Assembly: GCA_003221655.1 (NCBI GenBank)
Contig: QHSV01000027.1
Location: forward strand, 1-32,068
Length of the DNA: 32,068 nucleotides
Origin: Candidatus Rokuibacteriota bacterium
GTDB lineage: Bacteria > Methylomirabilota > Methylomirabilia > Rokubacteriales > CSP1-6
Reading direction: 5' to 3'
Program-made: the position numbers and the translations under genes
Shown here: positions 27,438 through 32,034 of the stretch, one piece after another
How positions within the stretch are numbered: position 1 is the stretch's first letter
How the letters are laid out: each line of letters starts with the position of its first letter
The notes under the pieces: model-generated
Seen by the model: only the letters and a program-made list of their open reading frames with translations
What the model was told of the DNA's origin: nothing
Databases searched by the model: none

Positions 27438-28469
27438 TTACCGAGGCTGCGGCGTCAGGCGCAGGTAGGGTTTCAGCGCACGCCAGCCGTTCGGGAACTT
27501 GATTCCTTCTGTGCCGGTCGCCACCCGGACGATGTAGTCCGCAAACCGCGGGAAGGGGTCGAAGCCCAGCACCGCGGGCGCATTGGCGACGAAGTTGGAG
27601 GTGGCGTTGACGTCGTAGAAATAGACACGGCCGTCGGTGCGGCCCACCAGATACTCGATCCCGCCGATGTCGATCGACGCGGCGCGGGCCAGGGCGCGCG
27701 CCTGCTCGACCACCGCCGGCGGAGCCTCGCAGCGCATGACGCTGAGCCCCGGGTTCGTCTCGACGGGACAGGCGCCAAGGGCGGCGCTCGGGGGCGATTC
27801 GGGGACCCGGCAGATGTCGGCCGGGCAGAGATTGAAGTCGGACGCGGTGCGGACGATCCGGATCGCGTAGAGGTAGCGGTCGTCCATTACCTCGATCCGC
27901 ACGATCGCGCCCTCCTCCGACTCGACGTACTCCTGGACCAGGGCCGTCCCGTCCGGGCCGAAGTCGAGCATGGCGCTCCTCGCCTCGAGCTCGGCGCGCG
28001 ACTCGAAGCGCTCGATGAGCGCGCCGGAGCCGCCGACGTTCGGCTTGACGAGGAGCGGGAAGCGAAGCTCTCCGCTCGCCTTGAGTACCTGGTCGCGATG
28101 GTTCACGATGACGGTCCGAGGATAGTGGACGCCCAGCCGCTCGAAGAGCCCGATCTGGAGCGCCTTGGACTTCTCGAACCGGTACGCGCGGACGGGATTG
28201 ATGACGGGTACGCCGAGCCCCTCCCAGTGGGCCAGCAGCGCCTCGGCGTAGAACAGCACGGCGCCGTGGCCACGCCGATGAGAGGAGGGGCTCGTGCGAT
28301 TCACGATGACCGAGTAGCGTGGGACGCGATCGCGCGGGTCGAAAGCGTGGTTCGAGTGGTCGATCTTCTCGAACGGCAACCGGCGGTGCTGGAGCTCGGC
28401 GATGAGCCGTGCCGACCACTCGGGATGCTCGTCGAGGATGCCGATCGGTGTCGAGAGCCGGACACTCAC
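27438..28469 (-). CDS. ATP-grasp-domain protein coupled to siroheme synthesis genes, function unknown
   Basis: The 343-residue protein has a RimK-like ATP-grasp fold. The start is GTG 28469, overlapping the cobA-type gene stop as GTGA. After an N-terminal preATP-grasp region (PIGILDEHPEWSARLIAELQ), VNPVRAYRFEKSKALQIGLFERLG-type sequence precedes the ATP-binding lysine strand PLLVKPNVGGSGALIERF. VQEYVESEEGAIVRIEVMDDRY and the metal/adenine motif GIEYLVGRTDGRVYFYDVNATSNF complete the site. ATP-grasp enzymes join a carboxylate (through acyl phosphate) to an amine or thiol. No substrate is evident. Position at the end of nirA-met8-cobA suggests it may act on the siroheme pathway, on sulfide/ammonia produced, or on the reductase itself. 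That is inference only. Confidence 0.85.
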   Translation of the reverse strand: MSVRLSTPIGILDEHPEWSARLIAELQHRRLPFEKIDHSNHAFDPRDRVPRYSVIVNRTSPSSHRRGHGAVLFYAEALLAHWEGLGVPVINPVRAYRFEKSKALQIGLFERLGVHYPRTVIVNHRDQVLKASGELRFPLLVKPNVGGSGALIERFESRAELEARSAMLDFGPDGTALVQEYVESEEGAIVRIEVMDDRYLYAIRIVRTASDFNLCPADICRVPESPPSAALGACPVETNPGLSVMRCEAPPAVVEQARALARAASIDIGGIEYLVGRTDGRVYFYDVNATSNFVANAPAVLGFDPFPRFADYIVRVATGTEGIKFPNGWRALKPYLRLTPQPR

Positions 28470-29269
28470 TGGGCCACCTCCATAGGGACACGGTTGTCGT
28501 CGAACCAATGGAGCCGGTCGCGCAGCGCGACGACCTCGCCGATCACGATCACGACGGGCGGCTCGAGCCGTGCGCGCGCTGCCAGGGCCGCGATGTCGCC
28601 GAGGGTGCCGGTGATCGTCTCCTGGACGTTCGTGGTTCCCCAGCGCACGAGAGCGACGGGAGTCGCCGCGGGGCGCCCGTGCTCGATCAGCTCACGCGCG
28701 ATCCGGGGCAGGCTCTTCACGCCCATCAAGACCACGAGCGTGTCGACGGCCCGCGCCAGCCGCGACCAGTCGACGCTCGACTCGCGCTTGCAGGCCTCTT
28801 CGTGTCCGGTCACGACCGCAAACGAAGAGGCGACGCCCCGGTGTGTGAGCGGGATTCCCGCGTACGCCGGGACGGCGACGGCCGAGCTGACGCCGGGGAC
28901 GACTTCGAACGGAATCCCGGCGCGCGCCAACGCGTCGGCCTCCTCGCCGCCCCGTCCGAAGACGAACGGGTCGCCGCCCTTGAGCCGCACGACACGGCGC
29001 CCGCGCCGTGCGTGCATGATCAGGAGCGCGTTGATCCGCTCCTGCGGCAACGTATGATGGTCGGACGCCTTGCCCGCGAAGATGCGCCGCGCACGCGGCG
29101 CCGCGTCCAGAAGGCGTGGGTCGACCAGCCGGTCGTAAACGACGACGTGAGCCCGGCGAAGCAGCTCGAGGCCGCGCACCGTCATGAGCCCGGGATCCCC
29201 GGGGCCCGCGCCGACGAGGGCGACCGTCCCGGCCCCGCGACGGCCTGCGGCTCGCACTACGGGGCGCAT
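28466..29269 (-). CDS. cobA: Uroporphyrinogen-III C-methyltransferase
   Basis: The 267-residue protein is the SUMT that adds two SAM-derived methyl groups to uroporphyrinogen III to give precorrin-2, the branch point to siroheme and cobalamin. VALVGAGPGDPGLMTVRGL, YDRLV, RLKGGDPFVFGRGGEEADAL, VPGVSSAVAVPAYAGIPLTHRG and VTGHEE are family signatures, including the SAM pocket. It is a stand-alone enzyme, without the CysG dehydrogenase domain, which is encoded separately upstream with a 13 nt overlap. Its stop overlaps the ATP-grasp GTG. Confidence 0.93.
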   Translation of the reverse strand: MRPVVRAAGRRGAGTVALVGAGPGDPGLMTVRGLELLRRAHVVVYDRLVDPRLLDAAPRARRIFAGKASDHHTLPQERINALLIMHARRGRRVVRLKGGDPFVFGRGGEEADALARAGIPFEVVPGVSSAVAVPAYAGIPLTHRGVASSFAVVTGHEEACKRESSVDWSRLARAVDTLVVLMGVKSLPRIARELIEHGRPAATPVALVRWGTTNVQETITGTLGDIAALAARARLEPPVVIVIGEVVALRDRLHWFDDNRVPMEVAQ

Positions 29270-29895
29270 GCTTCGACTCCGAGGAGCTCGAGCAGTCGGT
29301 GCTTGGCGTCGTCGCGCCCACGCTCGACGATGAGTCGGCGCACTTCTGGGCCGAGAGCGCGCCGCCAGGCGTCCGCGGTGACCTGTCGCCCCGCCACCCG
29401 CAGCTCGCGCCTGGCCTCCGCCGCGATCGCGGCGAGCGTCGCGTACTCGGCGGTGAGATAGGCCTCGAGTTCCTCCCGAACGGCGCGGGCGAGGGCGGGG
29501 CTCGAGCCGCCCGTCGCGACAGCCACGGTGAGATCGCCACGGCGCACGACCGCCGGGAGGATGAAGGTGCAGTGCGCCGGGTCGTCGGCGGCATTGACCC
29601 AGACGCCTCGCTCCCGCGCCTCGCGCGCCACGGCCACGTTGACCTCGCCTGCGTCGGTCGCAACGAACGCGAGATCGGCGCCGGCGAGGTCGCCCTCGCG
29701 ATAGCCGCGCGACTCCAGCTCGATGCGTCCCTCGGCGGCCAGCCCGGCTAGCGTCGCCGTCGTCCGCGGGCTGATCACTGTCACCCGCGCGCCAGCCGCC
29801 AGGAGTCCGGTGATCCGCCGCTCGGCGACCGGTCCCCCGCCGACCATGAGGCAGCGTCGGCCCGTAAGGTCGAGGAGCACGGGAAAGTACCCCAT
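29257..29895 (-). CDS. Precorrin-2 dehydrogenase / sirohydrochlorin ferrochelatase (Met8/CysG-N type)
   Basis: The protein has 212 residues. ATG 29895 is preferred because MGYFPVLLDLTGRRCLMVGGGPVAERR starts the family exactly and leaves 1 nt after the reductase stop; ATG 29913 would overlap it. The NAD+ motif is MVGGGPVAERR. LAGADLAFVATDAGEVNVAVAREARERGVWVNAADDP and CTFILPAVVRRGDLTVAVATGGSSPALARAVREELE are diagnostic. It oxidises precorrin-2 to sirohydrochlorin and may insert iron, supplying siroheme to the adjacent reductase. It ends 13 nt inside the cobA gene. Confidence 0.92.
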   Translation of the reverse strand: MGYFPVLLDLTGRRCLMVGGGPVAERRITGLLAAGARVTVISPRTTATLAGLAAEGRIELESRGYREGDLAGADLAFVATDAGEVNVAVAREARERGVWVNAADDPAHCTFILPAVVRRGDLTVAVATGGSSPALARAVREELEAYLTAEYATLAAIAAEARRELRVAGRQVTADAWRRALGPEVRRLIVERGRDDAKHRLLELLGVEACAP

Positions 29896-29896
29896 C

Positions 29897-31594
29897 TCAG
29901 CCGTCGACCCCATGCGGCGGCCGCTCGGACGCGACGTCGCGCGCGACCGCCTCGACGAGCTCGCCCGCCAGGAGCGCGCGGAGCTCGTCGTCCGTGTGGC
30001 GCGCGGCGAACTGGCGGAAGTTCTCGGCCGGCAGGCGGTCGGCCAGGAAGGTGCGCAGCAGGCGCTCGATCGCCGGGGCCACGTCGGTCGCGGGCAGGCG
30101 GAGACCGATGGGTCGTGCCACGGCCTGATGCCGGCCGACGGCGCCGCCGACGCAGAAGTAGTAGGCATCGACGAGCGCCCCGCCCTGCTTGACCTTCTTG
30201 CCTTCGATGCCGAGGTCGGCGATCCAGTGCTGGCCGCAGCTGTTCGGGCAGCCCGTGATGTTGATCCGCAGGTGCTGGTCGAACCCCGGCAGCCGCCGCT
30301 CGAGCGTCTCCACGAGCCCTCGCGCAAACCCTTTCGTCTCGGTGAGCGCCAGCTTGAAAAACTCCGAGCCCGTGCACGCGACGGTCCCACGCCGGAACGG
30401 TGAGGCACCGAGCGCGAAGCCCGCGGTCTCGAGGTCGCGGGCGAGAGCGTGGACGCGCTCGCGGCGGACGTTCGGGATCAGGAGGTTCTGCATGTGGGTC
30501 GTCCTGAGCGCGCCCGTCCCGTAGCGCTCGGCCAGGTCGGCGGCGGCGCGCATCTGGTCGGCCGTGAGACGCCCACGAAGCACGGCGACTCCCGCGTAGG
30601 AGAGGCCCGGCTGCTTCTGGGCGTGGATCCCCACGTGGTCGCGGTATACGTCGTCGGGCGGGTCGTCGGGCACACCCGGCTCAAGGGGGAACCCCAGGCG
30701 CTCCTCGATCGCGGCCCGGAAGCGCTCGGCAGTCCAGCCGTGCTGGAGGAAGAGAAACTTGAGGCGCGCCTTCTCGCGGTTCTGTCGCAGCACGTCGGAG
30801 TCGCGGAAGATCTCGGCGATCGCGCGAACCACGCCCAGCGCCTGGCCCCAGGGGACGAAGGCGTCGAGTCGCACTCCGAGGTGCGGATCGGTCGAGAGCC
30901 CCCCGCCGACGCGGACCGCGAAGCCAATCTCACCCGTTGCCGGGTGGCTGACCGCGGTGACACCGATGTCGTTGATTTCTGGATACGCGCACCAGGCGCG
31001 GCAACCCGCGATTGAGACCTTGAACTTCCGCGGCAGGTTGTAGAAGGCGGGATTGCCGTTGAGCAGGTGCGTCGCCTCGAGGACGAGCGGTGAGGCGTCC
31101 ACCAGCTCGTCGGCGTCCACACCGGAGAGCGGGCAGCCCGTGACGTTGCGCGTGACGTCGCCGCACGCGCCCATCGTGGTCACGCCCTGAAGCCAGAGCG
31201 CGCGGAAGACATCGGGCAGGCTCTCGAGCGTCACCCAGTGCAGCTGGATGTTCTGGCGGACCGTGATGTCGGCGATCCCATGACCATGCCACTCGGCGAG
31301 GTCGGCGATCGTCCTGAGCTGGTTGGACTCGAGGGCGCCGTTCGGGATCCGGATACGCACCATGAAGTGGCGAACGGCCTTGCCCTCGCCGCCCTTGCCG
31401 CCGACCGCGCCGACACCATCGCCCTGGGTATAGATGCCCCACCAGCGGAAGTACGTGCCGAGCCACTCGGGTGGGACCGCGTCCCAGCCCTCACGCGCGA
31501 AGCGCTGGATGTCGGCAAACGCCTCCCAGGGATTGAGCTCGCGCTTGAGCCTCTCCACGCGCTGCGCCTTCGTCTCTTTCACGGCTTCACTCAT
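29897..31594 (-). CDS. nirA: Ferredoxin-type nitrite/sulfite reductase (siroheme, [4Fe-4S]) with one cluster cysteine missing
   Basis: The protein has 565 residues from ATG 31594 (GGAGG upstream). It contains the duplicated ferredoxin-like half-domains and siroheme-binding repeats: HFMVRIRIPNG, DITVRQNIQLHW (siroheme-contact Arg), RKFKVSIAGCRAWC and a second repeat from QKQPGLSYAGVAVLRGRL. The cluster/siroheme motifs are CTGSEFFKLALTETKG and NITGCPNSCGQHW. Family members have CTGxxFC in the first; here Cys407 is present but position 413 is Phe (TTC). Cys449 and Cys453 are normal. The protein reduces nitrite to ammonia or sulfite to sulfide with six electrons from ferredoxin. Downstream precorrin-2 dehydrogenase, SUMT and ATP-grasp genes make up its cofactor operon. 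The loss of one of four cluster ligands could mean altered activity, decay or a sequencing error. Confidence 0.9.
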   Translation of the reverse strand: MSEAVKETKAQRVERLKRELNPWEAFADIQRFAREGWDAVPPEWLGTYFRWWGIYTQGDGVGAVGGKGGEGKAVRHFMVRIRIPNGALESNQLRTIADLAEWHGHGIADITVRQNIQLHWVTLESLPDVFRALWLQGVTTMGACGDVTRNVTGCPLSGVDADELVDASPLVLEATHLLNGNPAFYNLPRKFKVSIAGCRAWCAYPEINDIGVTAVSHPATGEIGFAVRVGGGLSTDPHLGVRLDAFVPWGQALGVVRAIAEIFRDSDVLRQNREKARLKFLFLQHGWTAERFRAAIEERLGFPLEPGVPDDPPDDVYRDHVGIHAQKQPGLSYAGVAVLRGRLTADQMRAAADLAERYGTGALRTTHMQNLLIPNVRRERVHALARDLETAGFALGASPFRRGTVACTGSEFFKLALTETKGFARGLVETLERRLPGFDQHLRINITGCPNSCGQHWIADLGIEGKKVKQGGALVDAYYFCVGGAVGRHQAVARPIGLRLPATDVAPAIERLLRTFLADRLPAENFRQFAARHTDDELRALLAGELVEAVARDVASERPPHGVDG

Positions 31595-31605
31595 GAGGGC
31601 CTCCG

Positions 31606-31655
31606 GAAACGCAAAAGCCGGGGGCGGGCGCGCTTCTCGGCCCGTCCTCCGGCTT
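31606..31655 (-). terminator. GC hairpin with U-rich tail upstream of nirA (terminator or attenuator)
   Basis: On the minus strand AAGCCGG (31655-31649) pairs with CCGGCTT (31621-31615), and inside it CGGGC (31644-31640) with GCCCG (31629-31625). The strand continues TTTTGCGTTT. It lies after the zinc-ribbon stop and 21 nt before the nirA ATG, so it could be an intrinsic terminator of the small gene or a regulated attenuator for the reductase operon. Confidence 0.6.
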
Positions 31656-31694
31656 GTGTCTTTGGCTTCGACGTCGCCTTACGACGGAGTCATG

Positions 31695-31883
31695 TCACCC
31701 CACATACCGCAGGGGTACCCGCACCCACGCTTTACATCGCGGGCACTTGGCCGTCACGCGGCCCGTCGGCGGGTCGACCTTCAGGATCGCGTTATGGATC
31801 ACTACCTCGTTCTGGAGCTTCACAACCACCTTCGCCTCGCACACCGGGCAACGCAAGGCCGGCTCTTGGACGTGAGTGCTCAT
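31695..31883 (-). CDS. Small Com-like zinc ribbon protein
   Basis: The 62-residue protein starts at ATG 31883 (GGAGACGGG upstream; an in-frame ATG at 31913 lies across the -10 and is unlikely). Cys12/Cys15 in RCPVCEAKVVV and Cys47/Cys50 in KCPRCKAWVRVPL form a CxxC-CxxC zinc ribbon, resembling the phage Mu Com translational regulator group. Between them lies a beta hairpin-like region. It is the first gene after a strong promoter and precedes nirA, separated by a hairpin. A nucleic-acid-binding regulatory role is possible. No phage gene is near. Confidence 0.75.
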   Translation of the reverse strand: MSTHVQEPALRCPVCEAKVVVKLQNEVVIHNAILKVDPPTGRVTAKCPRCKAWVRVPLRYVG

Positions 31884-31902
31884 CCCGTCTCCGATGGCAT
31901 GC

Positions 31903-31932
31903 AAAATACCCATTCTCGATCGAGATTGTCAA
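31903..31932 (-). promoter_or_regulatory. Strong sigma-70-like promoter of the zinc ribbon/nirA operon
   Basis: Minus strand: TTGACA (31932-31927), an 18 nt spacer, then TATTTT (31908-31903), about 20 nt before ATG 31883. The -35 is perfect. Expected start of transcription is near 31896, giving a short leader. Confidence 0.7.
31914..31925. promoter_or_regulatory. Perfect 12 bp palindrome between -35 and -10, likely operator
   Basis: TCTCGATCGAGA is its own reverse complement and lies centrally in the spacer of the promoter at 31903-31932. A repressor bound here would block RNA polymerase. The protein is not identified. Confidence 0.5.
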
Positions 31933-32034
31933 GAGGGGGCTGATTCTCTCATAGGATCAGGGCTTGGCGGTGCCCACGCGGGCCGTGATAACGTTCCCGA
32001 GCCGTCCAGCGGCCGCGCCCAGGGAGGGCTCACC

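Follow-up and report, generated by a model that had tools for sequence, protein, structure and literature searches.

A siroheme reductase operon at the end of the contig

The window (the whole stretch of 32,068 nucleotides that was analysed, from a soil bacterium) ends in a minus-strand operon comprising a reductase, a siroheme synthase N-terminal-type protein and a uroporphyrinogen-III C-methyltransferase. The features considered here are the following.

28466..29269, minus strand: uroporphyrinogen-III C-methyltransferase (siroheme synthesis), intact; TIGR01469, 322.6 bits against a cut-off of 185
29257..29896, minus strand: siroheme synthase N-terminal-type protein (precorrin-2 dehydrogenase / Met8-CysG-N), intact; TIGR01470, 153.5 bits against a cut-off of 62.3
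29897..31594, minus strand: NirA/SirA-type siroheme [4Fe-4S] reductase ORF, 565 aa, frame intact
30236..30250, minus strand: Cys449-Pro-Asn-Ser-Cys453, the CX3C ligand pair, each Cys present in 91/91 orthologues
30356..30358, minus strand: codon 413, TTC (Phe) instead of the relatives' Cys codon, from the sequence and the orthologue comparison
30359..30361, minus strand: codon 412, TTT (Phe), a private synonymous TTC to TTT change two bases from the Cys-to-Phe change
30374..30376, minus strand: Cys407, first ligand of CX5C, Cys in 91/91 orthologues
31595..32033, no strand: upstream gap, the site of cysH in the relative G001, with no cysH here and nothing but the 72-aa ORF listed next; the next gene is on the other strand
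31695-31913, minus strand: 72-aa ORF upstream of the reductase, with weak zinc-ribbon matches below cut-off

The reductase ORF contains two stretches each of PF03460 and PF01077, both above cut-off in a profile search, and its best solved relative by sequence is NirA (SirA) of Mycobacterium tuberculosis (PDB 1zj8, E=4.3e-92). The AlphaFold model (mean pLDDT 82.3) has the sulfite/nitrite reductase fold and matches 1zj8 along almost all of its length (Z 43.0, rmsd 2.4, 518 aligned). The ferredoxin-nitrite reductases of spinach and tobacco (2akj, 3b0g) share this fold (Z 39.7, rmsd 2.7-2.8, 487-489 aligned) and have the same two-repeat architecture. A preliminary description of this DNA had called the gene NirA-type, and the domains, the match to 1zj8 and the predicted fold all agree with that call. 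The NCBIfam equivalog cut-offs are missed (393.7 bits against 594, and 374.8 against 523, for PRK09566 or PRK09567); these scores, obtained for the window protein alone, say little about the cysteine change described below. The ORF is best explained as orthologous to the ferredoxin-dependent siroheme reductases of the NirA/SirA type, closer in character to sulfite than to nitrite reductases. By descent the protein belongs to this group; given the CX5F motif described below, it is not classed as a functional member.

Cys144 and Lys192 of the window protein match the M. tuberculosis enzyme. Its Tyr55 and Cys144 align with Tyr69 and Cys161 of 1zj8, which are joined by a covalent bond. The title of a 2005 study by Schnell names this bond.

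A second NirA, with all four cluster cysteines, is encoded in the same genome on contig C184 (L153:2362-5957). Its neighbours are another methyltransferase and a molybdopterin oxidoreductase that is related to NasA/NasC and formate dehydrogenase, with scores below the curated cut-offs. At the positions of tobacco NiR Met175 and Asn226, which have a role in substrate choice and are named in mutant structure entries, this paralogue has Met and Asn, and the window protein has Gly145 and Lys192. We read the window protein as putatively sulfite-reductase-like and the C184 paralogue as a probable nitrite reductase.

Phenylalanine at the position of a cluster cysteine

Residues 407-413 of the reductase read CTGSEFF (window 30376-30356, minus strand). 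A G-to-T change in the middle base of codon 413 (30357) puts Phe in place of the relatives' Cys, leaving CX5F and three of the four cysteines of CX5CXnCX3C. The preliminary description had reported this missing ligand, a TTC codon one base from TGC in an open frame that keeps Cys407, Cys449 and Cys453, and the ORF and its relatives bear it out in full. The private synonymous change in codon 412 had been overlooked; taken together, the private changes in codons 412 and 413 turn CTG into TTT over three bases and make a T5 run.

Cys453, the last cysteine by position, is presumably the ligand that bridges to siroheme, as judged by homology. The lost Cys413 is the second cysteine of the motif and, on the same grounds, not the bridging one. 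That four cysteines hold the cluster, as the preliminary description assumed, is backed by excerpts of two papers: the siroheme-coupled cluster of assimilatory-type enzymes is held by CX5CXnCX3C (PMC10229431), and the four coordinating cysteines are conserved in NirA proteins (PMC10949509). The same excerpts of PMC10229431 describe DsrB, whose homologous cluster-siroheme site likewise departs from CX5CXnCX3C, its motif being CXnCCX3C with an extra Cys directly before CX3C. This arrangement is absent from the window protein, where residue 448, before Cys449, is Gly, as it is in 91/91 relatives. Nor has the protein gained a Cys, since all of its cysteines are present in nearly all relatives (seven positions in 91/91, C481 in 87/91). 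A compensating Cys and a DsrB-type ligand are thus ruled out, and the idea that another Cys has taken over the ligand position fails.

Because Phe cannot ligate iron, loss or crippling of the reductase activity would be expected. The accessible parts of the literature on cysteine ligands of siroheme-coupled clusters, and on the loss of such ligands, contained no work on a siroheme enzyme without this cysteine; such work may nevertheless have been published.

We consider it unlikely that the siroheme-[4Fe-4S] centre works on three cysteines, with one iron carrying water, hydroxide or a non-Cys ligand, the potential or specificity shifted, and Phe413 filling space. In its favour, the bridging Cys453 is retained, as is every other conserved residue except Ala157, and the DsrB motif, as given in those excerpts, is a precedent for non-standard ligation (PMC10229431). 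The cluster domain of a further enzyme, IspG (4s3b), resembles model residues 396-519 (Z 9.0, rmsd 3.3, 104 aligned). The cluster ligands of IspG are three Cys and one Glu. However, Phe offers no ligand, the columns invariant among the relatives hold no compensating change except A157S, and a three-Cys centre is common to no relative (0/91). Still less probable is an enzyme that works in a cysH-less lineage with extra cysteines in its N-terminal half, in which, the base being real, the bridged cluster would sit on three Cys and the open iron would shift the potential or the substrate range. A functional three-Cys siroheme centre would, if true, be an exception to the rule that assimilatory-type enzymes retain all four cysteines; the present evidence does not demonstrate any new cofactor.

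Conservation of Cys413 among relatives

The orthologue set was drawn from loci whose best stretch exceeds 480 aa. These gave 109 proteins including the window, 93 of them distinct, and removal of the paralogue L002 leaves 91 orthologues besides the window; the partial loci L031 and L096, both with Cys, were dropped. The named orthologues come from MAGs of Rokuibacteriota, Methylomirabilota and Acidobacteria. Alignment A1 holds 30 sequences, the window and 29 of 80 loci.

Cys413 is present in 91/91 distinct orthologues aligned over the site, and Phe occurs in the window alone. Before de-duplication, four Cys are found in 111/111 non-window rows covering the site, a count that takes in duplicate rows as well as a paralogue and a neighbouring reductase, one of each. 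A pattern with codon 413 left free, which still demanded the first Cys of the motif, has 49 matches in 47 of the 95 genomes of the phylum; 48/49 carry TGY and the exception is the window. When the codon is restricted to TGY or TTY, 45 of the 46 matches carry TGY. The gene is present in 9/9 genomes of the genus, eight of which have the Cys. The Rokuibacteriota MAG orthologues all have Cys413, in contrast to Phe413 in the window; one of them, on QHSR01000230.1 (L032), is 92% identical and has the same siroheme-gene neighbourhood and the same cysteines in its N-terminal half. In printed alignments of solved homologues, M. tuberculosis NirA and tobacco NiR, the latter with its CTGxxFC motif, align a Cys at position 413, and the plant enzymes have all four cysteines where the window protein has three.

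A three-Cys variant fixed in the lineage is ruled out by these counts, with Phe413 in 0/91 orthologues and in 1/49 free-codon matches, the window itself. The preliminary description had allowed for a change shared by relatives; alignment of the closest homologues shows instead that it is private to the window.

Among the columns invariant in the 91 orthologues, the window departs only at C413F and A157S, and one relative departs from three. The window protein is therefore not generally divergent. Codon 157 (31124-31126) specifies Ala in 91/91 relatives and Ser in the window, likewise by a G-to-T change.

State of the gene and of the contig

Compared with its nearest relative, the reductase has a dN of 0.038 and a dS of 0.313 (dN/dS about 0.12), which points to purifying selection. 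Changes private to the window with respect to four close relatives are nonsynonymous in 17/47 cases, in line with the private nonsynonymous to total counts of the relatives themselves (19/46, 25/57, 14/35 and 19/51). Beyond codon 413 and A157S, there is no sign of decay in the reductase gene. Countable columns were obtained from 18 of the 24 contig genes, the other six giving none; over these 18 genes, private residues number 86 in 4546 columns (10 radical) for the window and 123 in 4583 columns (14 radical) for G008, taken for comparison. The adjoining siroheme genes contain 2 (29257..29896) and 0 (28466..29269) private residues, none radical.

An old pseudogene is ruled out by the open 565-aa frame, the purifying selection and the ordinary load of private changes on the contig. 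An error-rich contig is unsupported, as radical private residues are not in excess over the 18 genes. A second, differing copy of the stretch was sought in the organism's own genome and only short chance matches were found, so a strain-variant second copy is rejected.

These observations bear on whether Phe413 is a consensus artefact, that is, a base error, a low-coverage miscall or a mixture of strains in a metagenome assembled from short reads, the organism itself having Cys413. We regard this as quite possible. It would fit a private change at a residue invariant in 91/91 relatives within a gene otherwise under purifying selection, the G-to-T change lies beside a second private change with which it forms the T5 run, and the genome is a draft of 557 contigs. 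On the other hand, neither private nor radical residues are generally over-represented on the contig, and no second, differing copy exists in the genome. Nor is it unusual for two private changes to lie within 2 bp of each other (3 seen, 1.95 expected, P 0.31). Every private change in codons 402-425 is synonymous and at the third position, as real evolution gives, except for the Cys-to-Phe change; these flanking changes suggest that the sequence around the site is genuine, but give no assurance about base 30357 itself. G-to-T is not enriched among the private changes (3/47). The accessible parts of the literature on damage-type artefacts gave nothing decisive, and no error rate was found in the excerpts of PMC7111523, which deals with the curation of MAGs.

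The stretch at coding positions 1141-1274 (window 30320-30453) is richer in private changes than the rest of the gene, with 13 over 134 bp (P 0.004 by a scan, or about 0.009 after correction for six scan sizes that were picked after a first look). This dense stretch is possibly a small recombination tract. Import of the segment by recombination from an unsampled lineage with Phe413 fixed would account for such density, and to this we give the slightest chance of all the readings: the clustering is weak, Phe is found in no fetched sequence, and the best local matches (87%) all have Cys.

cysH and the source of sulfite

In G001, a member of the same genus, cysH lies directly upstream of nirA (L152:17892-18650; PF01507, NCBIfam phosphoadenylyl-sulfate reductase), and in G011 a PF01507 gene is found about 2 kb upstream of nirA. 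No cysH was found in the organism's own genome, and G001 is the only one of the nine genus genomes that carries it. Genomes of this group retain the sulfite-reductase operon after losing cysH, its usual sulfite source. The seven other genus genomes lack cysH and keep the Cys; thus, loss of cysH alone does not explain the change. The ATP-sulfurylase family PF01747 was not found in the organism's own genome; it represents one type of the enzyme only, the control missed that of E. coli, and sulfate may still be activated in this genome.

Interpretation of Phe413

Phe413 most probably reflects either a mutation that disabled the enzyme recently or an error of sequencing, and not a novel type of enzyme; early decay and a base error, two of the options named in the preliminary description, both stay plausible. 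Of the two we tentatively favour a real base and a recent loss of function in a sulfite-reductase-like enzyme; a consensus error is almost as likely. These gradings are judgements and not calculations.

If the base is real and recent, the private G-to-T change in codon 413 would have exchanged the second Cys of CX5CXnCX3C for Phe. With no Cys stepping in, the [4Fe-4S] cluster would not be formed, or one iron would remain unligated and labile, and siroheme without its electron relay would leave the enzyme inactive or crippled. The cell may tolerate this loss because its lineage no longer has cysH, which normally provides the sulfite, and because nitrite would be handled by the second, intact NirA beside a NasA-type nitrate reductase. 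Against a loss of function stands the fact that Phe413 rests on a single MAG consensus base. The gene is moreover under ordinary purifying selection, the siroheme genes are intact, and cysH-less relatives keep the Cys. As the evidence stands, the case mainly illustrates how a single consensus base can mimic a new cofactor.

Cysteines of the N-terminal half

Of longer-lasting interest than Phe413 is a side finding in the N-terminal half of the protein, where Cys144, Cys154, Cys198 and Cys202 (residues 144-202; window 30989-31165) are each found in 91/91 relatives. According to excerpts of PMC10229431, one of the two duplicated halves of assimilatory enzymes has lost the cluster motif, the N-terminal half being structural. 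A profile comparison of the two halves of the reductase (probability 98.8%) aligns Cys198/Cys202 with Cys449/Cys453. The N-half cysteines may be a remnant, or a second putative metal site, in a half from which such sites have reportedly disappeared in assimilatory enzymes. The 1zj8 enzyme has a Cys where the window has Phe413; the window clade has the extra conserved Cys154, Cys198 and Cys202. The M. tuberculosis and tobacco enzymes are without the N-half CX3C pair, and the C184 paralogue keeps Cys154 and the CX3C positions.
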